Source: Alphaproteobacteria bacterium | GTDB lineage: Bacteria; Pseudomonadota; Alphaproteobacteria; Ferrovibrionales; Ferrovibrionaceae | DNA length: 64,000 nucleotides | Reading direction: 5' to 3' | NCBI GenBank assembly: GCA_017307375.1 | Contig: JAFKFH010000015.1 | Coordinates: 62,001-126,000, forward strand | In this document: positions 8,857 to 49,609 of the stretch, piece after piece | Numbering within the stretch: the stretch's first letter is position 1 | How the letters are laid out: every line of letters starts with the position of its first letter | Position numbers and translations under genes: made by a program | Notes under the pieces: generated by a model | What the model saw: only the letters and a program-made list of their open reading frames with translations | Told to the model about the DNA's origin: nothing | Databases searched by the model: none

Positions 8857-9276
8857 TCATGGCAGGATCCACGGATTGATGACCGTGATGCCGGCAGCAG
8901 CGAACGGTGCGACATCCCGGGTCGCAACGGTAAATCCATGAGCCGCGGCAATTGCGGCGATGTAACCATCCGGCGTCGGGAAGCCCTTGCCTGCCGACCT
9001 TGCCGCGACGGCGAGAGCCGCGTAGTGGCGCGCGGCCGCGGCGTCGAACGCCAGTATGCGGCCGCCGAACAAATCGAGCAGCTCGTCGAGCATCGCAGCC
9101 AGCCGGTCGCGCCTCCTGCCGGCGGCCAGGACGCCGATTCCGTAGCGCAGCTCGGCGAGCGTGATGCTCGTCAGGTACAGGGTCTCGGCCGCCTGGTCGT
9201 TGAGCCAGTCGCGGACCTTGCGGTCGGGTGCCTCCCGCATCGCCTCCGAGATCACGTTCGTATCGAGAACGATCAT
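8857..9276 (-). CDS. fitB: PIN-domain toxin, VapC/FitB family
   Basis: A 139-aa protein with the PIN ribonuclease signature: MIVLDTNVISE (first acidic Asp), LAELRYG (Glu), and FPTPDGYIAAIAAAHGFTVATRD (two C-terminal Asp). These toxins cleave RNA; FitB-type members pair with a ribbon-helix-helix antitoxin. The start overlaps the stop of the antitoxin gene (ATGA at 9273-9276), the standard order. All expected acidic residues are visible, so it is likely active. Confidence 0.9.
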   Translation of the reverse strand: MIVLDTNVISEAMREAPDRKVRDWLNDQAAETLYLTSITLAELRYGIGVLAAGRRRDRLAAMLDELLDLFGGRILAFDAAAARHYAALAVAARSAGKGFPTPDGYIAAIAAAHGFTVATRDVAPFAAAGITVINPWILP

Positions 9277-9527
9277 TCGAGCCTCAGCGGCTCGGCGGCG
9301 GTCCGGTCGGTCGTGCTGTCGATCCCGTCGAGTTCATCATCGGTCAGGCCTGCCGCGCGCCCCAATGCCGCCAATGCGTCCCCCATCCGCAATCGTGCGG
9401 GGGGCCGCACCGTCGCCTCGAGTATCTCGCGGATCTCGGCTTCGGTGCTGCGGCCATGCGTCGCCGCCCGAACACGCAGCGCGCGATGCACCTCGTCCGG
9501 CAGGTTTCTCACGGTGATGGTGGCCAC
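9273..9527 (-). CDS. fitA: FitA/VapB-type ribbon-helix-helix antitoxin
   Basis: An 84-aa antitoxin beginning VATITVRNLPDEVHRALRVR (ribbon-helix-helix), then GRSTEAEIREILE and a toxin-wrapping tail ending EPLRLE. The start is taken as GTG 9527 because a GAGGA site lies six bases upstream and because a homologue at 46334-46600 begins at the equivalent Met; an in-frame extension to 9599 is less likely. It would neutralise the adjacent PIN toxin and repress the operon. The inverted repeat at 9585-9649 is a candidate operator. Confidence 0.88.
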   Translation of the reverse strand: MATITVRNLPDEVHRALRVRAATHGRSTEAEIREILEATVRPPARLRMGDALAALGRAAGLTDDELDGIDSTTDRTAAEPLRLE

Positions 9528-9584
9528 GCTATCCTCATGTGGCAATGCTGTCATTGCAGTCATCTTGTGACTGATGACAGCAGT

Positions 9585-9649
9585 TTTCAAGCGGTTCAAC
9601 GCCGGCCTGATGATCGCGCGCTGATCGGCCGGCGCTGAACCGCTTGAAA
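9585..9649. repeat. long inverted repeat (23-bp arms) upstream of fitAB
   Basis: The arms 9585-9607 and 9627-9649 are reverse complements with a single mismatch and a 19-base loop. The repeat sits between the end of the gene at 9657 and the antitoxin start, both on the minus strand. It could end the upstream transcript (no T-run was seen) or serve as the FitAB operator, which in known systems is an inverted repeat. Confidence 0.8.
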
Positions 9650-10667: not shown

Positions 10668-10877
10668 TCAGTTCAGGTGGGTATTGTCGACACACCCGGC
10701 CAGGCTGCCGTCGGAGGCAATGATCTCGACCGGTTGCCCGGTCCGGGCCGCCAGCCTGGCGCCGCGCGCATACAACGTCTCGAGCAAGCGGCGGACCGCC
10801 GGCTCATCGTCGCTCTCGTAGATGGCGAACTCGGCTTCCGTCATCACGATGACATCGTCCCTGGTCATGGTGCTCAT
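10668..10877 (-). CDS. stand-alone copy of a paralogous 60-aa domain
   Basis: A 69-aa protein. Its core, AIYESDDEPAVRRLLETL, then LAARTGQPVEIIASDGSLAG, matches the N-terminal domains of the products at 11796-12371 and 18136-19560 (pattern Y-[DE]-[SG]-[DN]-D-[DE], a helix, then VEI-x-T/S-x-DG-x-[VL]-A). The function is unknown; the strand-turn-strand end suggests a small alpha/beta fold. It starts at ATG 10877 overlapping the upstream stop (ATGA). Confidence 0.65.
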   Translation of the reverse strand: MSTMTRDDVIVMTEAEFAIYESDDEPAVRRLLETLYARGARLAARTGQPVEIIASDGSLAGCVDNTHLN

Positions 10878-11791
10878 GTGGCGAGTTCTCCCTGTACCTT
10901 TATAATCCGGAGCCCAACCCAGCCCCAGTCTCCGGGCTCGCCCTCTGGCCCGGTCCACCAACCATACTCGGCCTCATCGTATCCGTCGGCTATCGCCTCA
11001 TCGGCGGTTTCGTAGATGTAGTCGCGGTCCCGGTACACCGAGACCTCGGGGAGCAGGTTCCGTCTGTACAGGGAAAATACCTGCCGGTGCACGGCAGCCC
11101 TACGCTCAGCCTCCATTCCCCAAACTGTCTCATAGTCGCTGTCCGATGGGTTCCCCCCACCGGTAATGGAAGCGATGTCGACGGTCTGGAGAATTTCGGC
11201 AACCTCCTGGGCGACTTTTCCGCTCGTTCTCCAGGCCAGCCCCGGGTTGTCCCAATACCACTGTATGGCGCGGTAGGCGCAATCGCCTCTAAGCCCTGTC
11301 AGCCTTGCGGCTGTTTGCCATTCAGAGGCCAGCAAGGCCTCAATGTGAATATTCCATGGCGAGGCGCCACGATGACGGTAGTCCTCGCGGTCGTGCATAG
11401 CATCCAACCGCTGGATGCGAGCTGCGCATGCCGCGACACATGCGTCGCTCAATTCCCGCAACGGTGAATTCTGGGCCGTGGCGGATTGTGGATGCCAGTC
11501 CGGTGTCACATGGTCCGGATATGGCGCCACGCGGATGACTTCTCGGATCTTTTCCGCGACATCGTCCGGGACCTTCCCCTCTGGCAGATCTCGCATGGCG
11601 TAGACGAGATCTCTGATCTCTTCCCTCGTCCAGCCTCGATACTCTCCGCTGTAACGGATGGCTTTTTCCTGCGGGCAGGTTATTTCTACCGGCCCGCTTC
11701 CGAAGTGGAACGACTTGGCGGTCGTGAACATGACAAAATCGCCATCGTCTTCGACGTACTCATGGCAAACCGCCATTTTTACTTTCAGCAT
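10874..11791 (-). CDS. hypothetical protein, lower GC than neighbours
   Basis: A 305-aa acidic protein. The first 60 residues are strand-rich (MAVCHEYVEDDGDFVMFTTA, GPVEITCPQEKAIRYSGEY); the C-terminus ends with tryptophan-rich YGWWTGPEGEPGDWGWVGL. No family recognised. Its base composition is visibly less GC-rich than the flanking genes, suggesting separate acquisition. It lies between the two small paralogues of the operon and overlaps the downstream one by 4 bases. Confidence 0.6.
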   Translation of the reverse strand: MLKVKMAVCHEYVEDDGDFVMFTTAKSFHFGSGPVEITCPQEKAIRYSGEYRGWTREEIRDLVYAMRDLPEGKVPDDVAEKIREVIRVAPYPDHVTPDWHPQSATAQNSPLRELSDACVAACAARIQRLDAMHDREDYRHRGASPWNIHIEALLASEWQTAARLTGLRGDCAYRAIQWYWDNPGLAWRTSGKVAQEVAEILQTVDIASITGGGNPSDSDYETVWGMEAERRAAVHRQVFSLYRRNLLPEVSVYRDRDYIYETADEAIADGYDEAEYGWWTGPEGEPGDWGWVGLRIIKVQGELAT

Positions 11792-11795
11792 TTTT

Positions 11796-12371
11796 TCAGC
11801 CCTCCGGAAACAGGATGTCCGCTGGCGTCCAGTTGCCGGTGCCCCCGGACCATGAAACGAAGACCATGTCGTGGCCAGGCGGCTGCGGCTGATCGACGTC
11901 GTGGATGACGCCGGTGTCGACGCCGTCCGCGTCGTCGGCGCGGACCTTCAGTCCGTCGACCACGGCCAGCCAGATCAGGGACGGATCGGCGGCCAGGATC
12001 TCGGCGGCTTCGGACGTGTCCGGGTCGATATCGTCTCGCGCCGCGCAGGCCGGGTCGGCGTACCTGTTCACGAGGTAGCCGAAGCGGCTACCGAAGGTGG
12101 CCGCGGCGTGTCCTTTGAGGATCTGGGCAGTGAGGGCCATCGCTGGTTTCCCCCGGTCATGCGTTGAAGATGGGGCGGCCGGCTCGTAACGTTCCACGAC
12201 GTCGGCCACGATGCCGTCAGCCGTGTGGATCTCCACCCGGGTGACTGCACCGGCGAGCAGGTCGCCAGCCTGTTGGCGCAACTGCCTGATCATCCCGGCC
12301 GACACGTCGTCATCGTCGGAATCGTAGGCTGCGGTCTGCCCGTCGGTCATCGTGATCGTCGTGGTGGTCAT
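11796..12371 (-). CDS. two-domain paralogue: 60-aa domain plus Trp-Thr-Pro motif domain
   Basis: A 191-aa protein. Residues 10-60 (QTAAYDSDDDDVSAGMIRQL, then VEIHTADGIVADVVERYEP) match the domain also seen at 10668 and 18136. The C-terminus has VFVSWSGGTGNWTPADILF, matched by VWVKWDSGVSTWTPASLL in the product at 18136-19560. The role is unknown. It is the first gene after the duplicated promoter/operator at 12374-12470 and so probably leads an operon of four minus-strand genes. Confidence 0.65.
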   Translation of the reverse strand: MTTTTITMTDGQTAAYDSDDDDVSAGMIRQLRQQAGDLLAGAVTRVEIHTADGIVADVVERYEPAAPSSTHDRGKPAMALTAQILKGHAAATFGSRFGYLVNRYADPACAARDDIDPDTSEAAEILAADPSLIWLAVVDGLKVRADDADGVDTGVIHDVDQPQPPGHDMVFVSWSGGTGNWTPADILFPEG

Positions 12372-12373
12372 GA

Positions 12374-12470
12374 TCAGATCCTCTCGATCTCTCTCCGGCT
12401 ACGCACCGCCGGCAGGTGGCCCGGTCGTCCACCGGGCTGGCAGGTCGATAATATGCGCAATGCGCATAGA
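12374..12470 (-). promoter_or_regulatory. promoter/operator/leader, copy A of a 97-bp duplicated block
   Basis: On the minus strand: -35 TTGCCT (12477-12472), an 18-base spacer and -10 TATTAT (12453-12448). The spacer contains the palindrome ATGCGCATTGCGCAT (12467-12453). The leader holds a CCCGGT-GGACG-ACCGGG hairpin and an AGGATC ribosome site before the ATG at 12371. All 97 bases are identical, in inverted orientation, to 23285-23381. Confidence 0.85.
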
Positions 12471-21431: not shown

Positions 21432-22406
21432 TCAGACGGCGGCCCGCGGCTCCAGCGGCGCCAGGCAGGCCGGTTCATCGGCCTCGGCCGCATTGACGCG
21501 CGGGCCGACCGGCCAGGTCCGCAGCACCGCGTTGCCCACCGTGTTGGTCAGCAGCAGGCGGACGCGGTAGTCGTCCGCCGGGCTCTCGCCCAGCCAGATC
21601 GGCACATTCCGGGGCTCGACGATCAGCGGCATCCGGTGCTGCCCGATGCTCCTCAGCGTGTCATTGCTGGTGACGGTGATCAGCGCCGCGCTGCGCAGCC
21701 AGTCGCCGTCCCCGCGGCGCCAGGCGCCCCACAGCCCGGCGATCAGCAGCGGCTGGCCGTCCGCCCGGGCCACGGCATGGGGCTCGTACAGCTGCGATAC
21801 CGTGCGCCAATCGTAATAGCCCTCGACGACGAGGAGGCAGCGCCTGTGCCGCAGCGTCGGCCGCCAGGCGGCATCCTCCATGACGTAGTCGCCGCGCACC
21901 GCGATGCGGCGATGCGGGTGATCGTCGTCGGCCAGCCAGTCGGGGGTGATCCCCCAGCGCAGCAGGTCGAGCTGCCGGTGCCGGGCGCGCGGCTCGAACC
22001 GGACCACCGGCACCTGGCCGAGCGCCGGCAGGTTGTAGACCTCCGGCCAGTTGTGGGCCCGGGCGACGTCGCCGAGATCGGTCGCCCCGGCCGCCGCCAT
22101 CAGCTCGGCGCGGCCGTGGCGCCAGAACAGGCGGGTGGCGACCTCGTAGTCATGGACACCCTCGAATGTCGGCACGGCCGGTGTGTACTGCGCCGGCGGC
22201 CTGAGCAGCGGCGGCTGACGCCGGCGCAGCCAGAACCGGCGGGCGAGGATGCTCTCCACCACCTCGCCGGCGAGCCGGCGCGCCAGCTCGACCGGCACCC
22301 CGTCCGGCAGCGCTGCGCGCAGCGTCCAGGACCGGCGCAGCGTCGCGGTGAGATGGGTCTCCAGATAGTTGCGATCCCGGTCGGAGATGAGTTCGGCCTC
22401 GTCCAT
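21432..22406 (-). CDS. diverged SRAP-family protein with N-terminal extension
   Basis: A 324-aa protein. The SRAP fold is visible: LLRWGITPDW, RRCLLVVEGYYDW, LLIAGLWGAWRRGDG and GQHRMPLIVEP. Key residues differ from SRAP/YedK/HMCES enzymes: no Cys2, no NARAE motif (AVRGDYVMED instead), and Asp (YYDW) where the catalytic Glu is expected. The His of HRMP is kept. About 90 extra N-terminal residues are unassigned. It is unlikely to make the standard abasic-site crosslink. A LexA box lies 30 bases upstream of the start. Confidence 0.7.
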   Translation of the reverse strand: MDEAELISDRDRNYLETHLTATLRRSWTLRAALPDGVPVELARRLAGEVVESILARRFWLRRRQPPLLRPPAQYTPAVPTFEGVHDYEVATRLFWRHGRAELMAAAGATDLGDVARAHNWPEVYNLPALGQVPVVRFEPRARHRQLDLLRWGITPDWLADDDHPHRRIAVRGDYVMEDAAWRPTLRHRRCLLVVEGYYDWRTVSQLYEPHAVARADGQPLLIAGLWGAWRRGDGDWLRSAALITVTSNDTLRSIGQHRMPLIVEPRNVPIWLGESPADDYRVRLLLTNTVGNAVLRTWPVGPRVNAAEADEPACLAPLEPRAAV

Positions 22407-22435
22407 CGCGCCACAATGGACGGAGTCACGCATGA

Positions 22436-22450
22436 GAACAAGTAGAGAAC
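22436..22450. promoter_or_regulatory. LexA box (GAAC-N7-GAAC)
   Basis: GAAC at 22436-22439 and 22447-22450 are separated by seven bases; on the minus strand this reads GTTC-N7-GTTC, the alphaproteobacterial LexA consensus. It lies between two divergent SRAP genes, whose family is named for SOS association. It is 30 bases from the minus-strand start and 81 from the plus-strand start, so it may control both. Confidence 0.8.
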
Positions 22451-22530
22451 ATAAGGGATCGCCCAACCCGGCGGATTCGTGCCATCCTCCTGGCCGGAAA
22501 CATGGGAAACCGGCCGCGGGAGGTATCGGG

Positions 22531-23256
22531 ATGTGCAACTACTATTCGCGAACCCGCGGGCTCGAGCACGTCGAGCTGGCGCTCGGAATCGGCCAGCGGA
22601 CCGCGACGAACTATCCGCCTCATGTCGTCGTGCGTCCGACGCACACCGAGCATGTCGCCCGCCGGCGGCCGGATGGCCAGCGCGAGCTGGTCGAGATGCG
22701 CTGGGGCCTCGTCCCGCTCTGGGCGCCCGACATCAAGTCGGCCGGCTATACGATGACCAATGCGCGAGCCGAGGAGATCATGGGCAAAAAGAGCTACAAG
22801 CCTCCCTTCCTGGCTGGCCGCCGCTGCCTGGTCCCGGCCGATGGCTATATCGAGTCGACCGGGCCGACGGGCAAGAAGACTCACCATTTTTTTCACCCGG
22901 TCGATGGCAGCCTACTGGTGATGGCCGGGCTGTGGGAAGCCTGGCCCGGACCGAAAGGGGCGCCGCTGGCTGAGCCGTTGCTGAGCTACACGATCTGCAC
23001 GCACGCCCCCAACCGGTTTGCATCCCAGTGGCACGACAGGATGCCGGCGGTGCTCACCTGCGAGCAGCAGGATCGCTGGCTGGATCCTGGCGAGACGCCG
23101 GCCGACCTGATCGAGATGCTGCGTGAGCCGGTGGCCGAGGACATGCTGACGATGACGACCGCCGATCCCGACGTCCTACGGCTGAAGGTGCGACCGACGG
23201 TCGAGATGCTCTACGGGCAACCGCCGGCGGCCGCCGACGAGGCCGGGCTACCGTAA
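22531..23256 (+). CDS. yedK: SOS response-associated peptidase (SRAP; YedK/HMCES)
   Basis: A 241-aa canonical SRAP protein that shields abasic sites in single-stranded DNA by a covalent thiazolidine link. Cys2 (MCNYYS), Asn77 in NARAEEI, Glu108 in ADGYIES and His168 in WHDRMP are all present. The start at ATG 22531, with GGGAGG at 22518-22523, leaves Cys2 correctly exposed after Met removal. It is divergent from the degenerate SRAP gene, with a LexA box between them, so SOS induction is likely. Confidence 0.92.
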   Translation: MCNYYSRTRGLEHVELALGIGQRTATNYPPHVVVRPTHTEHVARRRPDGQRELVEMRWGLVPLWAPDIKSAGYTMTNARAEEIMGKKSYKPPFLAGRRCLVPADGYIESTGPTGKKTHHFFHPVDGSLLVMAGLWEAWPGPKGAPLAEPLLSYTICTHAPNRFASQWHDRMPAVLTCEQQDRWLDPGETPADLIEMLREPVAEDMLTMTTADPDVLRLKVRPTVEMLYGQPPAAADEAGLP

Positions 23257-23279
23257 TGGCGGGGCCGGCGGATTGCCGC

Positions 23280-23381
23280 TTGACTCTATGCGCATTGCGC
23301 ATATTATCGACCTGCCAGCCCGGTGGACGACCGGGCCACCTGCCGGCGGTGCGTAGCCGGAGAGAGATCGAGAGGATCTGA
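23280..23381 (+). promoter_or_regulatory. promoter/operator/leader, copy B of the duplicated block
   Basis: -35 TTGACT (23280-23285), a 16-base spacer and -10 TATTAT (23302-23307): a strong sigma-70-type promoter. The palindrome ATGCGCATTGCGCAT (23288-23302) fills the spacer, the ideal place for a repressor. The leader has the CCCGGT-GGACG-ACCGGG hairpin and an AGGATCT ribosome site before ATG 23384. Bases 23285-23381 are identical to copy A at 12374-12470. Confidence 0.87.
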
Positions 23382-23383
23382 CC

Positions 23384-23917
23384 ATGGCCAAGACCACCAT
23401 CTATTGCGAGTGCGGCGCGCCGATCGTCGTCGTGGGGCGCAACCGGCGCGACGCCGACGCCCAGGCCCGGAAACTGGCCGGCACCGCGCAATGCGACGCC
23501 TGCCGGCGGCGGGCATTCGACCAGAAGAATGCCGAGGCACTCGCCGCCAGCGCCGGCCTGCCCCCGCTCGACGGCACGGCCAGGCAGGTGCCCTGGGCAG
23601 CCTCGATCCGCCTCGAGATCCTGCCGCTGTTCGACACGGTGCCGGCCGCGATGCTGGAGGGCATGGTCGAAGAGATCGCCGAGTTCACGGCGCCCGAGCG
23701 CCTTGAGGCGGCCCGCCTCGAATTGGCCGACGCGCTGGCCCTGATCGTCACCGAGTTCCGTGCGATCACCGATGCCGAATGGTGGATCGAATCTCGCAAC
23801 GGCGCCTCCGAGTATGGCGTCGAATCGTTGATCCGCAAGGAGCTCGAGCGGCGCGAGGAGATCCTGACCCCGACCGTCTGGAATGCCCGGCGGGAATTCC
23901 TGGCGGCGGTGCGGTGA
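23384..23917 (+). CDS. hypothetical protein with N-terminal zinc-ribbon-like motif
   Basis: A 177-aa protein. The first 45 residues carry two Cys pairs (IYCECGAPIV at 8 and 10, then QCDACRRRA at about 37 and 40), consistent with a zinc site. The remainder is helical (MLEGMVEEIAEFTAPERLEA). It is the first gene of a six-gene operon that begins at promoter copy B and includes a VWA and an AcrVA2-like protein. The stop overlaps the next start (GTGA). Function unknown. Confidence 0.65.
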   Translation: MAKTTIYCECGAPIVVVGRNRRDADAQARKLAGTAQCDACRRRAFDQKNAEALAASAGLPPLDGTARQVPWAASIRLEILPLFDTVPAAMLEGMVEEIAEFTAPERLEAARLELADALALIVTEFRAITDAEWWIESRNGASEYGVESLIRKELERREEILTPTVWNARREFLAAVR

Positions 23918-24546
23918 GCGGGCTCGATTTCTCGGCGCTGACCGACGACCAGCTGGTCGAGCTGGTGCGCGAATGCTGCCGGGAGGCGGTCCGGCGCAGC
24001 CCGGCCGCCTCGGCCGCCATCGAACGCATGATGCTCGACGAGGCCGAGAAAGTGCGCGTCGCCCAGGCCGCCACCGCGACCGAAGCCGCCGCCGCCCGGG
24101 CGCGCGAGCGCATGCGCATCGCCAACGAGGCAGCCGCGGCCGAGCGAGCGCGGCAGGATGCGGCCACGGCGGGCGAGCGTGCAGCCGCCGCGCGGCGCGC
24201 CGCCGAACGCGAAGCCGAGGCCGCCCAGCGCCGTCTGGCGGCCGAGATGGCATTGCTCCGGCGGGTCGCGTCCGAAATCGGCCGCCAGCCGGCCGAGATC
24301 AGCATTCTCCACATCCGGACGCGCTACGGCCGGCGGGTGATGGTCAATGCCGGCAGCGACCGGTTCACCCGTGACCATCTGGTCGACTACAACGCGGACA
24401 CGCGGCAGATATCGACCAAGGCGAGCCTCGTCACGAAAAAACCCGACCTGATCCGGATCGCGGCGGAAATCGCCACGCACTGCGCGATCGACACGTTCCT
24501 GGTCGGCGCCAGCTATCCGTGGCATTCCTCCCAGGAGACGCGATGA
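23914..24546 (+). CDS. coiled-coil protein of unknown function
   Basis: A 210-aa protein starting at GTG 23914. Residues about 45-115 form a long Ala/Arg/Glu coiled coil (AEKVRVAQAATATEAAAARA). The C-terminal 85 residues look globular (RTRYGRRVMVNAGSDRFTRD, then IAAEIATHCAIDTFLVGASY). It overlaps both neighbours by 4 bases, so it is translationally coupled to the zinc-ribbon and VWA proteins and may form a complex with them. Confidence 0.6.
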   Translation: MSGLDFSALTDDQLVELVRECCREAVRRSPAASAAIERMMLDEAEKVRVAQAATATEAAAARARERMRIANEAAAAERARQDAATAGERAAAARRAAEREAEAAQRRLAAEMALLRRVASEIGRQPAEISILHIRTRYGRRVMVNAGSDRFTRDHLVDYNADTRQISTKASLVTKKPDLIRIAAEIATHCAIDTFLVGASYPWHSSQETR

Positions 24547-25127
24547 CACAGACGCCAGCCAATCCCCTCCAGACCCTGATCAACAGCGCAAGCGTGCTGC
24601 CTGCCAGGACCGGCATGGTCGACGAGTTCCGGGCGCGCCGTGAACGTTCGGCCGGCGACGAGGTGATCCTTGCCGATGTCAGCGGCTCGATGGCTGAGCC
24701 GGCCTGGGGGTCGAAACGCAAGATCGACCTGCTGCGCGAGGCGGTCGCCGACGTCTCGGCCCATCACTGCCGGATGGTCGCCTTCGCCTCCCGGGCCGCT
24801 CCGTGCGACGCCGCCGGCATCCCCGAGCCCGCCGGGGGAACCAGGCTCGATCTCGGCCTTGCCGAGGTGGCGCGGCTCCGCCCGCGAACCACGCTGGTGA
24901 TCAGCGACGGACGTCCCGACGATCCCGATCTCGCCCTCGCCGCCGCCGATGCGGTGACGGGAGTGATCCACGTGCTCTATGTCGGTCCCGACAGCGACGC
25001 CGACGCCATGGCGTTCATGGACCGCCTCGCCCGGCGCGGGACCGGGCGTTACCGCCATGCCGACATCCGCGAGCGCCGGACCGTCCTGCAGCAGGAGATC
25101 AGGCTGATGCTGGGTTGGGGCGGATGA
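24543..25127 (+). CDS. von Willebrand factor A-domain protein
   Basis: A 194-aa protein, nearly all one VWA domain. The metal-ion-dependent adhesion site is complete: ILADVSGSM (D45, S47, S49), a Thr in AGGTRLDLG and an Asp in VISDGRPDD. VWA proteins mediate metal-dependent protein-protein contacts; stand-alone cytosolic forms often partner with AAA ATPases, none of which is present here. It lies between the coiled-coil and AcrVA2-like genes, overlapping each by 4 bases. Confidence 0.85.
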   Translation: MTQTPANPLQTLINSASVLPARTGMVDEFRARRERSAGDEVILADVSGSMAEPAWGSKRKIDLLREAVADVSAHHCRMVAFASRAAPCDAAGIPEPAGGTRLDLGLAEVARLRPRTTLVISDGRPDDPDLALAAADAVTGVIHVLYVGPDSDADAMAFMDRLARRGTGRYRHADIRERRTVLQQEIRLMLGWGG

Positions 25128-25930
25128 GCCCGCAATTCACGCCGAAGGTCTGCCGGCCGCAGAAGCATCTGGAGGCGGGCGGCGGGCTCTACCCGCAGGC
25201 CTGGTCGCTGATCGACCGCTTCCGCGCCGGGAGAGGCCGCGAATTCCCGGACTGGCCCGACTGGTGCTACATCCCGATCACGGCCGGCCATACGGTCGTG
25301 GCCGAGGATGCCGGCGTCGACGTCATGGCCGTGCCGCTCCTCTATCCGGAGCGGGCGGCCGACGGCCCCAAGATCGCGGCGCTGGCCGCCTGGCGGGTCA
25401 CCCAGGGTGTCTACCAGTTCGCCCCTGACCTGTTCGCCCGCATCCTGGCGACGCCCGTGCATCTCGGCCTGACCGTCGACGTCCTGTTCGAGCTGCCCGA
25501 ATGGTGCGTCTATGTCGAGACCCCGGGCCTGACCTGGGGCAACGAGAGGCTGCACGGTTTCTTCGCCCATCTCGAATCCGACATCGACGATCAGCGGCCG
25601 GAGCTCCGGTTCGTGCTCGATACCGACAGCGAGCTGATCGCGTTGCCGCTGCACCTGGGACCGATGACGATGGCCGAAGCCGTCGACCGGACGCTGGCCG
25701 AAGCCCGCTACCGCGGCCTGGAGATCGGCCCGGCCGCCGCGACCGCGATGGGACGGATGCTCGCCCCGTTCGTATCGCTCGTCCTCTATCTCTGCGTCGA
25801 GCGATCGACGATCGTCGACCGGCGCGGTCGGCATCCCGAAAGGCCGCGGCCCCGGAAGATCCGGGGGGAATGGCGTCTTCCGCCAGCCGACGGCCCGACC
25901 TACTGGCAGGTCGCCGAGGCCGACCTATGA
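25124..25930 (+). CDS. AcrVA2-like protein (anti-CRISPR family homologue)
   Basis: A 268-aa protein. From memory of Moraxella AcrVA2, several signature stretches align in order: WRVTQGVYQF (AcrVA2 WRNTLGIYQL), LPEWCVYV at 124-131 (LPDWCVYV), HGFFAHL (KGFWAIY), LRFVLDTD at 161-168 (LDFVVDTD) and LYLCVE at 221-226 (LWLCVA), ending with P-x-YWQV. AcrVA2 blocks type V-A CRISPR by causing loss of Cas12a mRNA. This protein ends before the basic C-terminal region of AcrVA2. Whether it inhibits any CRISPR system is untested, and no CRISPR genes lie nearby. Confidence 0.75.
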   Translation: MSPQFTPKVCRPQKHLEAGGGLYPQAWSLIDRFRAGRGREFPDWPDWCYIPITAGHTVVAEDAGVDVMAVPLLYPERAADGPKIAALAAWRVTQGVYQFAPDLFARILATPVHLGLTVDVLFELPEWCVYVETPGLTWGNERLHGFFAHLESDIDDQRPELRFVLDTDSELIALPLHLGPMTMAEAVDRTLAEARYRGLEIGPAAATAMGRMLAPFVSLVLYLCVERSTIVDRRGRHPERPRPRKIRGEWRLPPADGPTYWQVAEADL

Positions 25931-26211
25931 CGCTCGGGAAGCCCCGGCACACGTCGCCGGCACCGGCGGACGTGGCCGCCGCCCGGGCCGAGGTGCAGCA
26001 GATCCTCGAGCTGGGAATGACGGCCGCCCGCGACTGGTGCGCCGCCCGGCTGTTCACGAGCCGCCGGTCGTTCCAGCAATGGGAGGCGGGCGAGCGGGAA
26101 ATGCATCCGGCGATGTGGCGCCTGCTCGAGATCCAGCTCGCGGTCCTGCGCGCAGGAGGGAGAACGAAAGTGCTTGCCGAGATCGGGCGCGACCTTTTGC
26201 GGTACCTGTGA
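25927..26211 (+). CDS. small HTH protein, Aca-like
   Basis: A 94-aa XRE-like helix-turn-helix protein: MTAARDWCAARLFTSRRSFQ followed by QWEAGEREMHPAMWRLLEIQ. The QWExGxRxMHP element is typical of small regulators where YExG ends the recognition region. It directly follows the AcrVA2-like gene with ATGA overlap. Small HTH genes after acr genes (aca) commonly repress their operon at inverted repeats. The palindrome at 23288-23302 is the obvious candidate target, but this is inference. Confidence 0.75.
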   Translation: MTLGKPRHTSPAPADVAAARAEVQQILELGMTAARDWCAARLFTSRRSFQQWEAGEREMHPAMWRLLEIQLAVLRAGGRTKVLAEIGRDLLRYL

Positions 26212-26273
26212 TGGTGCGGAGCCGGGAGGCGGCGCGGCCGGTTTGTCCACCCGGCCGGGACAGGAGGAGACTG

Positions 26274-26912
26274 GTGATATCGGCGCTACGCTACCGCTCG
26301 ACACGCGTACTCGGAAGCCTTGTCCTGCTTCTGCTCGGCCAGCTGCTGCTCGGCCTGGCCGCGGCGCAGGCGGAACCCTCGCGCGACTTGACCGCATTCG
26401 ACGCGGTCGTCAACGAGATCCGCGTGCGGTCGACCCCAGATTCCGGGTCTTGCGCGCCGCAACGCGACGAAATCGCTAATCGCCTCCGGCCTGCTTTCGA
26501 GGCCTCCTCCGAGCTGACCTTCGTCAGCGATGAGGACGCCGAGGCGGTATTTGCCCAGGCGATCGGCCAGGCAAGGCCTGGCTACAGACCAATCTCCGAT
26601 CCCAAGCTGCTGACGGAAACCGCGGACCGGCTGATCGCCTCCGCGGTCCTCCGGATCATCGTCGATGCGAGCAAGATCGAGCGCAGCTGCGTCCTGAGCT
26701 ACAGCGGCACTGTGGAGTTGCGGCTCGAACCGGCCAAAATTCAAGGGTCGTCGGAAATGGTGCATTTCCCGCGACACGCGATCCGGGAGTTCGCCGCGCT
26801 GGCGTTCGGAACGCCGGCCGTCGCACTCGGCGCGGCAATCGACGCCATCGCCGCCGACATCAGGGCGTTCACCACGGACTGGTCTGCCTCCCGGATTCGC
26901 TACCGCGGCTGA
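26274..26912 (+). CDS. secreted hypothetical protein
   Basis: A 212-aa protein starting at GTG 26274 six bases after AGGAGG at 26262-26267; an in-frame ATG at 26211 lacks a site. A hydrophobic signal sequence (LGSLVLLLLGQLLLGLAAAQ) precedes an alpha/beta mature part with two Cys. The middle holds LTETADRLIASAVLRIIVDA. No family recognised. It is probably the last gene of the operon from 23384. Confidence 0.6.
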   Translation: MISALRYRSTRVLGSLVLLLLGQLLLGLAAAQAEPSRDLTAFDAVVNEIRVRSTPDSGSCAPQRDEIANRLRPAFEASSELTFVSDEDAEAVFAQAIGQARPGYRPISDPKLLTETADRLIASAVLRIIVDASKIERSCVLSYSGTVELRLEPAKIQGSSEMVHFPRHAIREFAALAFGTPAVALGAAIDAIAADIRAFTTDWSASRIRYRG

Positions 26913-26971: not shown

Positions 26972-27703
26972 TCAATGCTCGTCGCGATCGTCTGCCCCCT
27001 TGTCGTGAGGATGCTTGAGGTCGTAGCGCCGCTCCAGGTATGCGTTGCGCTCGTCGTCGGTCTCGGCGCGAACGCCCGCCCATAGCAAGGGCCCGAGCGC
27101 TCTGATCGTCATGTGCTCCTCAACAAGCGGCACGCCAAATCCGACCTCCCAGGAGCCGTGCACAAGCAAGTAAAGTTCGTCGACCAGCGGCACTGTCCGC
27201 TCCAACAGCTTCCGCTCGTCCCCTACCTCAGCCCAACGCCCCGCCGCCTCCGGCGCATCGAACCGCGCGTGCGCCAGGAACTCGTGCCTCAATCTCGCGA
27301 GAGCCTTGACCTCTTCGCCTGCTGTCTCCTGATCGATACGGTCTGCGAGCCGATTGGCATCGACGGCAAACCTGCGACGACCGTCATCGCCGCGCGCTGC
27401 TGCGATCAACTGAAGGACGGATGCGTTCTTTGCAGCCAGGCGCAGCTGCGTCGCGAGAGCCGGCAACGATCCGGTTCCCTTCTTTCCATCCCAGGCACGC
27501 GTCAACGAAAGGATCGCACCCTGGTGCAGGATAGCGCCGGCGCGACCAACTGCGTGCTGTGCCTCGGATCTGCCGACGCGCGCGCGAAGGTCGTCGTCGA
27601 TGGCGCCGCTGTACCAGAGGGAATGCGCCCACAGCGCCCAACGGAGGCTCTGGCGTATCGCGTCGAGCCTTTTGGCAATCTGGTCCAGCATCACGGTCGA
27701 CAT
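26972..27703 (-). CDS. HEPN-like protein (RHEFLAH motif)
   Basis: A 243-aa helical protein. An N-terminal helix pair (RLDAIRQSLRWALWAHSLWY) and LARLRHEFLAHARF, with R139 and H145 spaced as in AbiU2-like and other HEPN RNases. The C-terminus is charged (LKHPHDKGADDRDEH). HEPN proteins commonly act in abortive infection. It is the first of three minus-strand genes with a SIR2 protein and a Sll1717-type ATPase just upstream. ATG 27703 is chosen over the adjacent GTG. Confidence 0.6.
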   Translation of the reverse strand: MSTVMLDQIAKRLDAIRQSLRWALWAHSLWYSGAIDDDLRARVGRSEAQHAVGRAGAILHQGAILSLTRAWDGKKGTGSLPALATQLRLAAKNASVLQLIAAARGDDGRRRFAVDANRLADRIDQETAGEEVKALARLRHEFLAHARFDAPEAAGRWAEVGDERKLLERTVPLVDELYLLVHGSWEVGFGVPLVEEHMTIRALGPLLWAGVRAETDDERNAYLERRYDLKHPHDKGADDRDEH

Positions 27704-27772
27704 CACGTGTCCCTTATCCGGTCCTGGCTGATCAGGCGGGCATCAGCGAGCCGGCCGGCCACGCCGTCGCGA

Positions 27773-29545
27773 TCACCACCGCATCTGCCGCGAGATCAGA
27801 TTGAAGTTCCTGAGCGCCAGAACGATGAATTCCTCGTCGCCCCTCCCGAAACCCGCCTTTTCCAGCGCGGACTTCATCGGCTCCGTGGACAATTCCGTCA
27901 TCAGCTTATCCCCGTTGGGACCGTACCAGGCCGCGCGGCCACAAGGCATCCGCATCCGTCGACCAGCAGCAAGATTCTCCTTAATTTCCTCCTTCGAGTT
28001 TTCCTCGAAGAAAGACACCGAGCCAAGCAACTCGAAACGGTCGAACAGCAACCTGAAGTCACTCTCGAGGCCGGCGAACCGCGGCGCCCAGCGTTCGAAC
28101 AGGCCGAACAGGTGGTCGCTGAGCGGCGTCCTATGCTTCTCCAGCCCCTCCAAGAGATGCCATGCGCTGTCTCCACCACCCTCCCAGCTGCCGAGGAATA
28201 ATGTCCTTACAACGCATTCCTCTTCCCGACTGCCCAGTCTGAGCTTGGCGTCGAATAACCTGTGCAACGCCGTCCAGCGGCCCGCGCGCGTCAGGCCGAT
28301 CCCGTAGGCGTAGAAAACGATTACGGCGGGATAGGTTTGCAAGTGGATATAAGCGCTAAAACCAACGCGCACCGTGCTCGCCTGAGTAACAATCGTCGCG
28401 ATGATGTCGAGCACGATTTGCGCCTCATTGTCGTCGCCCCACCGCCCCGCAAGTCCGGCGATCGCGGCGAGAGGCTCGACGATCGCCTCATACCTGGGAA
28501 CCCGCGCCCGGTATTCGGCCAGGTCCCACCCCATAGCAGTCGGAAAATGCCCAGCATCGATCTTGGCGAGTGCGCTCCGGGTCTCGTCGGCGAACAGATC
28601 GTCGAGCTGAATTCGATGTTCCGGCTTCGCCAGGAAGCGCTTGGCGGTCGCTGTCAGCAGATCGATGGCGAGCGGATTGACCCGCTGGGTCTGGCGGAGC
28701 GTTGTCACGCGCTGACTCAGCGCCGAAAAGAAGCTGTCGGCATCGGCGATCGATATCGCGCGGCCGCGGCGATGGCTGATCAGATCCCGGGCCCGCGGCC
28801 CGGGTTCGCCGCGGGCGGCCCAGAACATCGAATAGCGGCGGTTGGGTGCGCGCTCGATCGCCGCGCGCAACGCATGATCCCAGTCGCCCGACCAGCCGCA
28901 GACGATCAGCCCGTATTCGTCGAATATCCGGTCGAGAAGCGCATCGTACGGCGCAGGATAGCGGCTCAGTTCCGTCTCGATATTGAGGATCCTGGCATCC
29001 TTGTAGTCGCCGTGCAGTTTCAGGATATAGCAGCGGCTGTGCACGATTGGCTCGGCGCCGTCGAGGGCGTCGACCGAGGCCACGACGGTCGGCTCGATGC
29101 CCCGCTCGCGGAGCGCGCTCTCCAGCAGCCGGTCGAAATTGGTCGTGACGATGACCTTGATGTAGCCGCCTTCGACCAGCTCGGCGATCGCGCGGTGCGC
29201 GGCCGTCGGCGTCTTCCGCCCCTCCGCCCGATCCGCCTCGGTCGGCTCGATATAGCCATGGATGATCGCCCGGCGTTCGTCGGCGGTGGCGCCCAGCCCC
29301 GCCAGCAATTCGGAATAGTCGGGTTCCCGGCCGGTCCGCTCGCGATACCAGGCCGCCCAGTCCGCCTGGTCGCCGGCGCCCTGGGCAAGCCCGACCCGTC
29401 GAATGAGGTCGAGCGTGATCTCCCAGCCGGTCGGGATCTGCGCCGCCCGGGAAATGCCTGAACCCAGGAGCAGGGCATAGACACCGCTGGATTCGTGGAT
29501 GCCGAAAGCCAGCTGGGTCAGCGGATCGCCGGATAGGATGGTCAA
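27773..29545 (-). CDS. SIR2-domain defence-type protein
   Basis: A 590-aa protein. Residues about 20-270 form a SIR2 NAD-binding domain: YALLLGSGISRAAQIPTG, VIVTTNFDRLLE (N136, D138), ILKLHGDYKD (catalytic-type H178) and LIVCGWSGDWDH. The C-terminal 300 residues are helical and unassigned. SIR2 proteins with long C-terminal sensor regions deplete NAD during phage infection (DSR1/DSR2-like, Thoeris ThsA-like logic). It stands between a HEPN protein and an ATPase, as in defence islands. The exact system type is not determined. Confidence 0.85.
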   Translation of the reverse strand: MTILSGDPLTQLAFGIHESSGVYALLLGSGISRAAQIPTGWEITLDLIRRVGLAQGAGDQADWAAWYRERTGREPDYSELLAGLGATADERRAIIHGYIEPTEADRAEGRKTPTAAHRAIAELVEGGYIKVIVTTNFDRLLESALRERGIEPTVVASVDALDGAEPIVHSRCYILKLHGDYKDARILNIETELSRYPAPYDALLDRIFDEYGLIVCGWSGDWDHALRAAIERAPNRRYSMFWAARGEPGPRARDLISHRRGRAISIADADSFFSALSQRVTTLRQTQRVNPLAIDLLTATAKRFLAKPEHRIQLDDLFADETRSALAKIDAGHFPTAMGWDLAEYRARVPRYEAIVEPLAAIAGLAGRWGDDNEAQIVLDIIATIVTQASTVRVGFSAYIHLQTYPAVIVFYAYGIGLTRAGRWTALHRLFDAKLRLGSREEECVVRTLFLGSWEGGGDSAWHLLEGLEKHRTPLSDHLFGLFERWAPRFAGLESDFRLLFDRFELLGSVSFFEENSKEEIKENLAAGRRMRMPCGRAAWYGPNGDKLMTELSTEPMKSALEKAGFGRGDEEFIVLALRNFNLISRQMRW

Positions 29546-32928: not shown

Positions 32929-33618
32929 GTGTCGCAACCAGATCTCGCCGGCCGGCTGAATCGACTGAAGGCGCTCGAACAAGAGATCCTTGAGGCTAGC
33001 GCCCGCAGCATCGGTCATGAAGCTGCAATCTGCCAGACTGACCTTTTCCTTCTGGGCGCGTTGCGGCGCACCTTGGCGCAGTCGCGCGGATTTCGCGACC
33101 TGATGACCGCCCGCAATTTTCCGTGCGCAGCAGCCATACTGCGGCTTCAGATCGACACCGCGATGCGGGTGAACGCGCTCACCCTCGTCGACGATGTGGA
33201 ACAGACTTGCGGCGCCGTGCTGAGAGGGGACCAGTTCAACCGCCTGAAAGACCGGAGCCGAACGAAGATGTCAGATGCGCACCTGCGTCGAAAACTCGCC
33301 GGCAACTATCCTTGGACGAGCACAGTCTACGAACAGACGTCAGGTTTTGTGCATCTCTCAGATCGACATTTTCTGTCGTCGATCGCCGGCATGGATGAGG
33401 CCAATCGGTCGGTTCGATTCCAGATTGGCGGCGAGGATCCACCCCGCCCCGACGCAGACTATTTCGAAGTGGTGGACGCCTTCACGGAGGCAACAAGCCT
33501 CGCTGGAAAATTGATCGTTGGAATATTGATGTTCATCCACGGCCGGACTGGCGGGGCCAATGCAACGACGACGGAGAGGCAGCAGGATCTACCACCGAGC
33601 GACGAGCCTGCTGAATAG
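32929..33618 (+). CDS. helical paralogue A (pair with 36091-36735)
   Basis: A 229-aa protein starting at GTG 32929 after GGAGGGG. The conserved core, TDLFLLGALRRTLAQSRGFR, then NFPCAAAILRLQIDTAMRVN, and TSGFVHLSDRHF near the end, is shared at roughly two-thirds identity with the product at 36091. The pattern (helix with R-x-x-x-D-x-AMRVN, later LS-x-x-VHLS) recalls HEPN-like families such as DUF5677, but the assignment is weak. The two copies flank an HNH endonuclease and a serine recombinase. Confidence 0.65.
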   Translation: MSQPDLAGRLNRLKALEQEILEASARSIGHEAAICQTDLFLLGALRRTLAQSRGFRDLMTARNFPCAAAILRLQIDTAMRVNALTLVDDVEQTCGAVLRGDQFNRLKDRSRTKMSDAHLRRKLAGNYPWTSTVYEQTSGFVHLSDRHFLSSIAGMDEANRSVRFQIGGEDPPRPDADYFEVVDAFTEATSLAGKLIVGILMFIHGRTGGANATTTERQQDLPPSDEPAE

Positions 33619-36090: not shown

Positions 36091-36735
36091 ATGCCAGACG
36101 CTGACCTTGCAGGCAGGCTGAGGAGACTGGAAAATCTCGAAAATGAGCTCATTCACAAGGGCGTACAGAGCATCGGGCCGAACGCTGCAATCCATCAGAC
36201 TGACCTGTTCCTCCTGGGAGCTCTGCGGCGCACCCTAGCGCAGTCGCGTGGGTTTCGCGACTTGATCAGTGCCCGCAACTTTCCTTGCGCGGCAGCCATT
36301 CTACGCCTGCAGCTCGACACCGCCATGCGGGTGAACGCGCTCTCGCTCATTCATGATGTTGAGAACGCCTGCAGAGCGGTCCTGAACGGAGAGCAATTTA
36401 ACCGCCTCAAGGACCGCGATCGAATTAAGATGTCAGATGCGCACCTGCTCCGAAAGCTTGCTGAAAGCCATCCTTGGGCAAGTAAAGTCTACAAAGAGAC
36501 GTCAGATTTCGTCCATCTGTCAGGGCGGCATTTTATATCGTCAATTGCGCGCGCAGATGATGCCACCCGTACGGTGCATTTCCAGATCAGCGGCGAAGAT
36601 CCGCGTCGGCCCGAAGAGGACTATTTCGAAGCGGTGGATGCCTTCTTCGAAGCAACGAAGCTTTCTGGAACGCTAATTCTTGCCTGCTGGATGACAATCC
36701 ATCCGCCCAATGGTGAACGGGCTGACACGAACTAG
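36091..36735 (+). CDS. helical paralogue B (pair with 32929-33618)
   Basis: A 214-aa paralogue of the product at 32929, with the same core (TDLFLLGALRRTLAQSRGFR, then AAAILRLQLDTAMRVN, then TSDFVHLSGRHF). DNA similarity continues past the stop codons of both genes (a GGATC...GAGCGACGA stretch), showing true duplication rather than domain similarity alone. This copy is shorter at the C-terminus. ATG 36091 has AGGT upstream. Function unknown. Confidence 0.65.
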   Translation: MPDADLAGRLRRLENLENELIHKGVQSIGPNAAIHQTDLFLLGALRRTLAQSRGFRDLISARNFPCAAAILRLQLDTAMRVNALSLIHDVENACRAVLNGEQFNRLKDRDRIKMSDAHLLRKLAESHPWASKVYKETSDFVHLSGRHFISSIARADDATRTVHFQISGEDPRRPEEDYFEAVDAFFEATKLSGTLILACWMTIHPPNGERADTN

Positions 36736-47838: not shown

Positions 47839-48192
47839 TTGACACGAGGTTTGCTTCTGGCAACTGGCCTATGGCTTGCCGCCGGGCCCGCATGGGCCGC
47901 GGAAGGGTCGAGCAAAGCAGCGCCAGATCCGGCCGATCCGACGGCCCCGACATCGGCGTTGCATTACGACCCGGTCTTCAAAGGGTATGAGGCTTTCCGA
48001 GACGTAAAACGGATTCCGTGGAAGGACGCCAACAGGACCGTTGGGCAGGTTGGCGGCCACGCCGGCGCCCTGAAAGGCGAAGCGGACGCTGCCGCCGATC
48101 CGACACCGTCTTCCCAATCCGGCGAGAGCGAGACGCCAAAGGCGGCACCGCTGACGCCGGTCACCGGCCACGGAGCCCATCATGGCGGTTGA
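47839..48192 (+). CDS. small secreted protein, first gene of the copper island
   Basis: A 117-aa protein starting at TTG 47839 after GAGGA. Signal peptide LLLATGLWLAAGPAWAAEGS; the mature part holds YDPVFKGYEAFRDVKRIPWK and ends with a His-rich GHGAHHGG, a plausible metal-binding tail. Proteins like this precede the TolC gene in alphaproteobacterial copper operons. It overlaps the next gene by 11 bases. Confidence 0.7.
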   Translation: MTRGLLLATGLWLAAGPAWAAEGSSKAAPDPADPTAPTSALHYDPVFKGYEAFRDVKRIPWKDANRTVGQVGGHAGALKGEADAAADPTPSSQSGESETPKAAPLTPVTGHGAHHGG

Positions 48193-49591
48193 GCCCCGCA
48201 CCTTGCGCGGCGGATTTGCCGCCGCGGCGATCGCCTTGTTGCTGGCAGGCTGCGCCGGGCCGATCGCCCAATCCAGCTTTGACGACGTCAACGCTATTAC
48301 AAAGGCAAAGACCGGGCGCCAGTCGGCATGGATTTCCAATGACGAGGCTGCCGACAAGGCCCGATCCCGCGTCGAAACACTCCTGGCCCAGCCGCTGACG
48401 GTCGACGACGCCGTCGAGATCGCGATGCTCAACAACCGGGCGCTCCAGGTTGACCTGTCCGAACTCGGGCTGGCCGCCGCGGATCTGGCCCAGGCCTATC
48501 GCCTGCCCAACCCGGGGTTTTCGTTCAAGCGCCTCGAAAGTGCCGGCGTCGTCGATATCGAACGCAAGTTCACGCTGTCCGTGGTCGACGTCCTGTTCAT
48601 GCCGCTGCGCATCGATATCGAGCAGAACCGCCTGACCGTCGCCAAGCTTAACACCGCCAACGCGGTCCTGCGCATCGCGGCCGAAACCCGGCGGGCATAT
48701 TACCGCGCCATCGCGGCCGGCCAGGTCGCGGACTATGTCATGCAGGTCAGGGAGGCGACCGCAGCCAGCGCCGAACTGGCCCGCCGCATGGCCCGGGTCG
48801 GGAATTTCAACACCCTCGACTTCGCCCGCGAGCAGGCTTTTCATGCCGACGCGACGGCGCAAGCAGGGGTTGCCCGGCGGGCCGCGACCAGCGAGCGCGA
48901 GAAACTGACGCGGTTGTTGGGCTTGTGGGGACCCAATACCGCCTTCAAGCTTCCGCCGCGCCTGCCCGACCTGCCCGCCCAGCCGGTCGATGTTGCGGAT
49001 GTCGAGGCGACGACGGTGCGGGACCGGCTCGACATCAAGGCCGGTAGGGCCGCCATCGACAGCCTGGCGACATCGCTTGGCCTGACCCGCGCCACCGGAT
49101 TCGTCAACGTGCTCGATGCGAGCTACATCCGCGAAACCGGGGGTGGCGCACGCTCGACAGGCTATGAGATCAGCCTTGAGATCCCGATCTTCGACTGGGG
49201 CGATGCCAAGGTCGCCCGAGCCGAATACCTCTACCAGCAGGCGGCTCATCGATTGGCCGGCACGGCGGTGAATGCCCGTTCCGAAGCCCGCGAAGCCTAC
49301 ATCAACTACCGGACGGCCCTCGATCTCGCGATCGCCTATCGCGACGAGGTCGTGCCGCTGCGCACCCGCATCTCCGAGGAGATGCAGCTGCGCTACAACG
49401 GCATGCTGTCCAGCGTGTTCGAGCTTCTGATCGATGCTCAGGCCCAGATACGCAGTGTGATCGCCGCGATCGACGCGCAACGCGATTTCTGGATCGCCGA
49501 CACCGACCTCCAGTTCGTGACGATCGCCGATGCCGGCATGTCTGCTGGTGGAGGCCTGCGGCTTGCCGGCGCGGACGCCAGCGGCGACTAA
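48182..49591 (+). CDS. TolC-family outer-membrane lipoprotein
   Basis: A 469-aa protein with a lipobox (LLLAGCAGP) and two TolC-type helical repeats (VDDAVEIAMLNNRALQVDLS, and later EAYINYRTALDLAIAYRDEV). Family members form the outer-membrane channel of efflux pumps. It sits upstream of a multicopper oxidase rather than next to its own pump, so it may carry copper-related export with a partner encoded elsewhere or with the CusBA pump downstream. Confidence 0.88.
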   Translation: MAVEPRTLRGGFAAAAIALLLAGCAGPIAQSSFDDVNAITKAKTGRQSAWISNDEAADKARSRVETLLAQPLTVDDAVEIAMLNNRALQVDLSELGLAAADLAQAYRLPNPGFSFKRLESAGVVDIERKFTLSVVDVLFMPLRIDIEQNRLTVAKLNTANAVLRIAAETRRAYYRAIAAGQVADYVMQVREATAASAELARRMARVGNFNTLDFAREQAFHADATAQAGVARRAATSEREKLTRLLGLWGPNTAFKLPPRLPDLPAQPVDVADVEATTVRDRLDIKAGRAAIDSLATSLGLTRATGFVNVLDASYIRETGGGARSTGYEISLEIPIFDWGDAKVARAEYLYQQAAHRLAGTAVNARSEAREAYINYRTALDLAIAYRDEVVPLRTRISEEMQLRYNGMLSSVFELLIDAQAQIRSVIAAIDAQRDFWIADTDLQFVTIADAGMSAGGGLRLAGADASGD

Positions 49592-49609
49592 GCGAAGGAA
49601 TCAAATTCG

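Follow-up and report, generated by a model that had tools for sequence, protein, structure and literature searches.

A shortened member of the AcrVA2/FinQ family in a five-gene operon with a palindrome-bearing promoter

The protein compared here with its described counterparts is 268 residues long and is encoded at 25124–25930 on the forward strand of a stretch of 64,000 nucleotides (hereafter the window) from a contig of an alphaproteobacterium of the Ferrovibrionaceae. Its gene is the fourth in an operon of five and is followed by a gene for a small helix-turn-helix (HTH) protein. By profile and by fold it is a member of the family of AcrVA2, an anti-CRISPR (clustered regularly interspaced short palindromic repeats) protein, to which the fertility inhibition protein FinQ is assigned below as well. 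In the reading that we prefer, with a probability of about 45%, it would be a shortened member of the AcrVA2/FinQ family, a family that would silence mRNAs under the direction of nascent peptides, and the HTH protein would repress two operons via a palindrome in their promoters.

AcrVA2, which we take to originate from Moraxella bovoculi (PDB 7CI1/7CI2), is the closest counterpart of known structure. As reported in PMC13131331, it reads LSKT in the N terminus of nascent Cas12a, after which the mRNA is degraded by a machinery that is given as unknown; the same source presents it as the first such factor from prokaryotes, one that removes an mRNA via the protein being made. Of two abstracts from the same university in a meeting report (PMC12908700), one deals with mRNA degradation during translation and the other with use against tagged Cas9 and Cas12f, and a paper on tubulin autoregulation (PMC10403363) compares its subject to an anti-CRISPR that acts on Cas12a in its nascent state. 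IncI1 plasmids, R820a among them, encode the fertility inhibition protein FinQ. It is described in PMC8744291 as terminating tra transcription at multiple sites, with reference to work of the 1980s in which expression of F tra was shut off by FinQ at several positions (Ham and Skurray 1989), and it was included in a survey of plasmid fertility-inhibition proteins (PMC5696584). A literature search, with the preprint on the AcrVA2 mechanism outside its reach, returned no paper that pairs FinQ with an anti-CRISPR.

The AcrVA2/FinQ family and its C-terminal domain

The sequence-only reading had recognized AcrVA2 in the product at 25124 from the stretches LPEWCVYV, LRFVLDTD, and LYLCVE, all of which are present in the 268-residue protein; the AcrVA2 counterparts of the first two are LPDWCVYV and LDFVVDTD. 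With this protein as a single query, AcrVA2 is the top match in the PDB but a weak one (E = 0.0041). A profile based on an alignment of 33 sequences, including the window protein (profile A1), finds AcrVA2 with E = 2.8e-50 as the sole PDB match up to E = 10, in an alignment that runs nearly end to end. The predicted structure of the window protein (predicted local distance difference test 92.7) is superimposed on AcrVA2 with Z = 21.4 and a root-mean-square deviation of 2.9 for 241 aligned residues, ending at AcrVA2 residue 263, and Foldseek gives E = 9.5e-13 for the same pair. The next unrelated structure follows at Z = 2.7, and YfiA-like entries in Foldseek have E values of 0.29 or worse. The likeness to AcrVA2 was thus borne out by both kinds of comparison, which also confirmed the absence of the C-terminal region. 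The two proteins share their fold, a PEWCVYV-type core motif, and homology over nearly the whole length of the window protein, with an identity of only 17–18% in the structural alignment; AcrVA2 continues for about 59 further residues that include RPHIRRGHWH and are missing from the window protein.

When its own row was removed from the profile, the window protein scored 274.6 bits, compared with 184.8 for FinQ, 180.3 for the protein from Legionella, 174.2 for AcrVA2, and 101.9 for that from Streptomyces. FinQ (L148 among the collected loci, 363 residues when read from an upstream ATG) scores 183.5 bits on profile A1, with the open frame as input, next to 174.6 bits for AcrVA2; it retains KRPHIRRGHWHTYW and finds AcrVA2 in the PDB directly by phmmer (E = 4.6e-17), while a direct BLAST alignment of FinQ with the window protein gives 22% identity over 170 columns. 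The window protein (E = 1.8e-22), FinQ (E = 9.3e-48), and the full-length homologue L032 (E = 2e-55) also match phrog_6160, a phage family without assigned function or name, of which the window protein covers only positions 19–260 of 322. The profile scores, the direct match between FinQ and AcrVA2, and the shared phrog_6160 make the latter two proteins homologues, as far as sequence comparison goes. In the IncI1 plasmid NZ_CP145638.1 (L148:3228–4319) the annotated finQ start yields a protein of 259 residues and the upstream ATG one of 363; the longer form fits the profile better (183.5 versus 159.1 bits), and the annotated start looks too short.

FinQ-type proteins are common on plasmids. L032 matches 547 plasmid records, and among the best 60 of these, entries 22–60 (39) are of the FinQ type on Enterobacteriaceae plasmids, either annotated as FinQ or unannotated with the same match. 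Homologues of the 268-residue protein itself were found in 24 plasmid records, 7 phage records, and 19 genome-contig loci, as well as in viral contigs, where the single query gave 21 loci and the alignment 99 relatives, the best 80 of which were taken. Among 96 genomes two match, its own and one with a weak fragment interrupted by a stop (E = 8.6e-4). On pTHIMO01 of Thioflavicoccus mobilis (L025, 1961–8014), a plasmid typed as conjugative, a full-length member is encoded two genes downstream of brxL, itself preceded by a PglZ-domain gene (bacteriophage exclusion, BREX). Copies of the family, some of them broken, are clustered in loci of a Blastocatellia bacterium (L012) and of Azohydromonas (L005), which suggests local duplication and turnover.

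The kinship with FinQ raises the possibility that the window protein acts in fertility inhibition, lowering the expression of transfer genes of rival conjugative elements without any connection to CRISPR. In agreement with this, 8 of the 24 homologue-bearing plasmids are typed as conjugative and 5 as mobilizable, and conjugation genes are found on the contig of the window. This contig (C31, 237.6 kb) is probably at least in part a conjugative element, since a TrbI/VirB10 gene and a match to a coupling protein are both located on it; coupling-protein matches are present on contigs C9 and C35 as well, no match to the RepC family was found in the genome, and no closed replicon was seen. However, the window copy lacks the C-terminal domain of FinQ, the two proteins are placed in different parts of the family tree, and the remaining 11 of the 24 plasmids are typed as non-mobilizable, so we consider fertility inhibition somewhat doubtful as the role of the window copy. 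FinQ also stands singly before trbA, on a conjugative plasmid, whereas the window copy belongs to a five-gene operon.

The segment missing from the window protein is the most characteristic part of its relatives. Nearly all other sequences in alignment A1 end with H-[IVLM]-R-R-[AG]-H-W-H, then G, and then RWxPPIxVN; in AcrVA2 this block reads RPHIRRGHWHGYWQG. The match of the window protein to the profile stops at position 261 of 336, and the HxRRxHWH motif is absent from all three frames of the 900 bases downstream of its gene. For a census, 148 open reading frames (ORFs) were reduced to 121 by removal of exact duplicates and then to 116 that have a closed 3' end and cover the N-terminal part, with the window protein and FinQ among them. 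In this set, part of which was found by a pattern taken from the C-terminal block itself, 108 of the 116 ORFs reach profile position 310 or beyond, and 100 of those carry the strict motif, one a loose form, and the rest variant letters. Among ORFs from searches with the window protein (not counted itself), the domain is present in 52 of 58.

The other eight ORFs of the census comprise one that ends at position 293 and seven that end before 285: those of the window, Legionella sainthelensi (L027), Prauserella (L155), L070, L014, L012, and L020. Of these, L070, L014, L012, and L020 have the appearance of frameshifted, fragmentary, or divergent ORFs. Two more short proteins, from actinobacterial plasmids of Streptomyces and Amycolatopsis, end at 262 and 268. 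A clean short form therefore exists in the window, in Legionella, and on three actinobacterial plasmids, the Legionella protein and the three plasmid proteins ending at profile positions 259–268. In the tree of the family, in which 48 of the 115 inner branches are open, the short forms of the window and of Legionella are found mostly among full-length proteins, with moderate support of the forks. Such a placement suggests that they arose by separate losses at the same boundary.

A sober alternative is that a deletion removed the domain from the window copy, its function being lost as well, and that the gene is retained only by belonging to the operon. The presence of the domain in 108 of the 116 ORFs and the mostly full-length neighbours in the tree are in favor of such a degenerate remnant. 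On the other hand, the G+C content at third codon positions (GC3) is 0.88 in this gene, the fold is predicted with confidence, and the protein ends cleanly at a domain boundary with ATGA coupling to the next gene. The similar ends in L. sainthelensi and on the three actinobacterial plasmids also suggest that the short form is viable. On balance, degeneration of the window copy appears quite unlikely.

Operon, associated module, and operator palindrome

The five genes of the operon proposed by the sequence-only reading were all found in place, on the forward strand, with overlapping stop and start codons at every junction and GC3 values of 0.85–0.89, a coding signature. The first (23384–23917) encodes a protein of 177 residues in which a zinc ribbon can be read by eye from its cysteines (CxC..CxxC) and which matches phrog_16123 (E = 1.7e-16). 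Homologues occur in Pectobacterium plasmids, Accumulibacter, and viral contigs; a tblastn search found no plasmid match for this protein, yet homologues are present in the Pectobacterium loci examined. The second gene (23914–24546, with a GTG start) encodes a coiled-coil protein of 210 residues, 48% identical to proteins of Pectobacterium plasmids. Of 398 genomes from the phylum, two contain a match to it, its own being one; as a single query it had no match in viral contigs. Its model, made from a two-row alignment and too poor for a fold search, has a helix at 43–122 of low confidence (predicted template-modelling score 0.37). The third gene (24543–25127) encodes a VWA protein of 194 residues, which was aligned among seven sequences and matches Pfam VWA_CoxE with E = 3.1e-6 and 27.2 bits (cut-off 26.4); its visible DxSxS motif, DVSGS, resembles a metal-ion-dependent adhesion site. 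After the gene of the AcrVA2/FinQ-family protein, the operon is closed by the gene of the HTH protein (25927–26211, 94 residues). None of the five proteins has a match in PADLOC. Because the reading frames overlap, the 268-residue protein is probably translationally coupled to the zinc-ribbon/coiled-coil/VWA genes.

These three genes also occur together elsewhere. In a survey with profiles built from relatives of the three proteins, coiled-coil and VWA genes were found together in 14 distinct loci (15 locus numbers, L110 and L172 being one contig; two of the loci are closely related Pectobacterium plasmids). The coiled-coil gene directly precedes the VWA gene in 13 of them and lies 2.2 kb away from it in L056, and a zinc-ribbon gene comes before the pair in nine. 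An AcrVA2/FinQ-family gene follows the module in four loci representing three lineages: the window, the Pectobacterium plasmids pLPa1526 and p.MYP201603 (L026 and L055), and the viral contig L110/L172, in which the VWA stop overlaps the next start as GTGA, much as in the window. The Pectobacterium plasmids have the same genes in the same order before the family gene, which is followed by a small gene for an HTH or DUF1456 protein; they differ in two additional small genes (zinc ribbon, X, coiled coil, VWA, Y) and in a family protein of full length. A third Pectobacterium plasmid gave the same matches in homology searches only. The coiled-coil and VWA genes are also carried by plasmids of Delftia and Xanthomonas citri, none of which belongs to the 24 with a match to the 268-residue protein. 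Conversely, the zinc-ribbon family is represented in 11 of 144 locus numbers of the AcrVA2/FinQ family (duplicates and module loci included), and in L003 a zinc-ribbon gene stands directly before the family gene with the rest of the module missing. We conclude that the module is real, that phages as well as plasmids carry it, and that its association with the AcrVA2/FinQ family is recurrent, not obligatory. The earlier suggestion of a new module formed together with the AcrVA2-like gene holds in that the module exists and precedes the family gene in two other lineages; it does not hold for the 10 of 14 loci in whose examined stretch no such gene was seen, and for this reason the module cannot be called one for anti-CRISPR in itself.

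The promoter assigned to the operon is of the sigma-70 type (TTGACT-16-TATTAT, 23280–23307, forward strand) and is the sole promoter-like site in 22800–26500, where shuffled sequences gave a mean of 0.2. Its spacer holds a candidate operator, the perfect 7-1-7 palindrome ATGCGCATTGCGCAT (ATGCGCA-T-TGCGCAT, 23288–23302), the last base of which doubles as the first base of the -10 element. Both the promoter and the 15-bp palindrome between its -35 and -10 elements are therefore present as first described. Counted alone, such a palindrome is not rarer than chance would have it, with 19 perfect 7-1-7 palindromes in the window and an average of 9.7 over ten Markov-1 simulations; its position in a promoter spacer is rare, and so is its exact sequence in the genome (see below). 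Over all loci collected, spacer palindromes with arms of at least 7 were found at 36 of 1654 distinct promoter-like sites, including five at HTH-bearing loci.

The HTH label is weak when the window protein is taken alone, since it has no Pfam HTH match and its match to NCBIfam VC1465_fam (E = 0.0024) is below the cut-off, and it is better supported by the relatives. The protein had no phage match and one plasmid match. HTH relatives lie directly beside AcrVA2/FinQ-family genes in 10 of 113 loci, the window included, a count that has no control rate and in which three of the ten loci built the profile and the weakest E values are 1e-4 to 2e-3. The ATGA overlap with the 268-residue gene is as noticed earlier, and the pairing of the two genes recurs in these loci. 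In Vreelandella rituensis (L011) the operon likewise ends with an AcrVA2/FinQ-family gene and an HTH gene and starts at TTGACG-16-TATATT, the spacer of which holds the perfect palindrome ACGCGCAATGCGCGT in the same layout as in the window. When 2.2 kb upstream were scanned in 13 HTH-bearing loci, again with the window among them, eight had promoter-like sites, ten sites in all, and five of these (window, L011, L149, L076, and L135) contain spacer palindromes with arms of at least 7; arms of 6 are present in two further loci (L034 and L054). With the exception of L135 the palindromes are centered on CA-A/T-TG; other letters differ between lineages, and the layout recurs. Few near copies of the exact window operator (up to 3 mismatches) were found in the other HTH-bearing loci. 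Because spacer palindromes recur upstream in HTH-bearing loci, at 5 of 10 sites versus the 36 of 1654 overall, a link between the HTH gene and the palindrome, originally only inferred, is likely. Spacer palindromes at promoter-like sites were also seen in the family loci L094, L093, L074, L102, L103, L104, and L133.

The locus resembles those of Aca proteins, the anti-CRISPR-associated HTH repressors, in that a small HTH-like gene comes directly after an acr-like one and the promoter contains a palindrome; the likeness resides in gene position and promoter layout, and the pairing recurs. Unlike Aca, the same type of HTH gene closes the module without an acr-like gene in plasmid pXAC219 of X. 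citri. The survey of Aca proteins in PMC9765179 mentions AcrVA2 once, as a long Acr. Homology to AcrVA2, the HTH neighbour, and the operator architecture are what would recommend an inhibitor of Cas12a (type V-A) with its Aca repressor, the role proposed in the sequence-only reading. Other data do not support that role: the family includes FinQ, the C-terminal domain is gone from the window protein, and the CRISPR loci of the genome are of type I-C (57 repeats) and type I-G (21 repeats), a setting in which the window protein differs from AcrVA2, as it does in its operon partners. Cas12a (TIGR04330) had no match in this genome or in 17 homologue-bearing genomes, reached from 17 of the 19 genome-contig loci (L012 and L018 being left out), and none in 14 control genomes either. 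When the 75 spacers of the two arrays were compared with the window and the collected loci, the longest match to the window was 18 bases with one mismatch, and matches of at least 22 bases were limited to L058 and L059, two loci overlapping with these very arrays. We regard an anti-Cas12a function as very improbable and would not classify the 268-residue protein as an anti-CRISPR, but as a shortened representative of the broader AcrVA2/FinQ family, encoded in a recurrent operon. An AcrVA2-like protein is also mentioned for a Shewanella phage in PMC10846135, which cites a type I-E system for a Shewanella strain.

The leader of the operon, up to the first start codon (23285–23390), has a second copy on the reverse strand at 12365–12470. 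The second palindrome is located at 12453–12467, within the promoter-like sequence TTGCCT-18-TATTAT (12477–12448), and these two exact copies, starting at 12453 and 23288, are the only ones in the 7.54-Mb genome; a copy with one mismatch is present on contig C9, and the reversed-pattern control gave 0. The two palindromes are not independent, since the leaders that enclose them, about 106 bases extending to the start codon, share 98% identity. No third match to the leader was found in the genome at E 0.01. By this identity, the promoter-leader is duplicated and kept, so that two divergent operons, 11 kb apart, should be regulated together. Judging from ORF calls, leader copy 2 probably serves a second operon (10874–12371, reverse strand) for proteins of 191 and 305 residues, which by eye look unrelated to those behind copy 1. 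Neither has a Pfam or PHROGs match, and the 305-residue protein has no match in plasmids; their role may reveal the purpose of the regulon. A special RNA element in the leader was considered and dropped, the predicted RNA structures being not exceptional (z = -1.5 and -1.3).

Proposed action of the family

In the mechanism that we favor, a member of the AcrVA2/FinQ family would bind the peptide of its chosen target as it leaves the ribosome, and the mRNA of that target would then be lost. The silencing step is the one reported for AcrVA2 and would, by kinship, apply to FinQ and to the remaining members. The target would vary between members: AcrVA2 would be directed at Cas12a, FinQ at a tra product, and the window copy presumably at a protein of host defence or of a rival element. 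The choice of target may be ascribed to the N-terminal and central domains, and the conservation of the HxRRxHWH domain suggests that it triggers the loss of mRNA or contacts the ribosome. The window copy, as modelled, keeps the N-terminal and central domains, presumably including the peptide-binding face. It would be expected to bind its target without the usual trigger, either blocking the nascent protein or leaving its operon partners to finish the task; that these partners supply the missing trigger is a guess. The several apparent termination sites of FinQ in a long polycistronic message could correspond to multiple decay events. The HTH protein would most likely repress, through the spacer palindrome, its own operon and the second one under the duplicated leader.

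A number of observations weigh against this interpretation. The description of FinQ in PMC8744291 is that of a transcription terminator and not of a factor for mRNA decay, and the tree does not make AcrVA2 and FinQ sisters, with the window copy placed elsewhere again. None of 33 proteins of the F tra region has an LSKT-like motif near its N terminus; a scan with [LIVM]S[KR][TS] gave a sole match, at position 137 of TraN. This result runs counter to a recognition sequence common to AcrVA2 and FinQ, and FinQ would therefore need another one. It is just as conceivable that the window copy, having lost the C-terminal domain, is no longer functional. Eleven of the 24 homologue-bearing plasmids are typed as non-mobilizable, and no AcrVA2-like gene was seen in the examined stretch of 10 of the 14 module loci, of which L056 counts for little because its stretch extends only about 0.5 kb beyond the VWA gene. 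Finally, 6 of the 13 HTH-bearing loci are without a spacer palindrome, five having no promoter-like site and one a site without a palindrome.

We can speculate further that FinQ and AcrVA2 form one family of translation-coupled mRNA silencers with interchangeable targets, which mobile elements direct at host immunity as well as at rival plasmids, and that the short forms of the window, L. sainthelensi, and the actinobacterial plasmids are limited to binding, either blocking the target without decay of its mRNA or, in the present operon, recruiting a separate machine of the zinc-ribbon, coiled-coil, and VWA proteins. Stated to this extent, the proposal is unlikely.

Neighbouring genes and significance

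Directly upstream of the operon are two divergent genes for SOS-response-associated peptidases (SRAP; 21432–22538, reverse strand, and 22369–23256, forward strand), and downstream of it an AbiU2-type HEPN protein is encoded beside a SIR2-domain protein (26972–29545, reverse strand), possibly as a defence pair. When window positions 1–25000 were searched against plasmids at the nucleotide level, no more than six records matched, by short segments of the stb or HTH type; the best match is that of 9400–9515, which is 83–85% identical to stbC of Sinorhizobium plasmids; a pair of genes at 8857–9599 (reverse strand) looks by eye like a toxin–antitoxin system. A direct repeat of 300 bases with 74% identity (32941–33240 and 36103–36402) lies inside ORFs of 250 and 214 residues. 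The region at about 48182–61321 (forward strand) resembles, again by eye, a block for metal resistance that includes a two-component system and a resistance-nodulation-division (RND) efflux operon.

The link to FinQ is, in our view, a more valuable result than the question of anti-CRISPR function, because through it two unexplained mechanisms become testable in a simple laboratory system. If AcrVA2 and FinQ do share their mechanism, FinQ, the F plasmid, and Escherichia coli would provide a simple genetic system for the decay step, and the short forms could separate the part that recognizes the target from the part that triggers decay. In that case probably hundreds of enterobacterial plasmids, as indicated by the 547 matching records, would carry a silencer aimed at their competitors.

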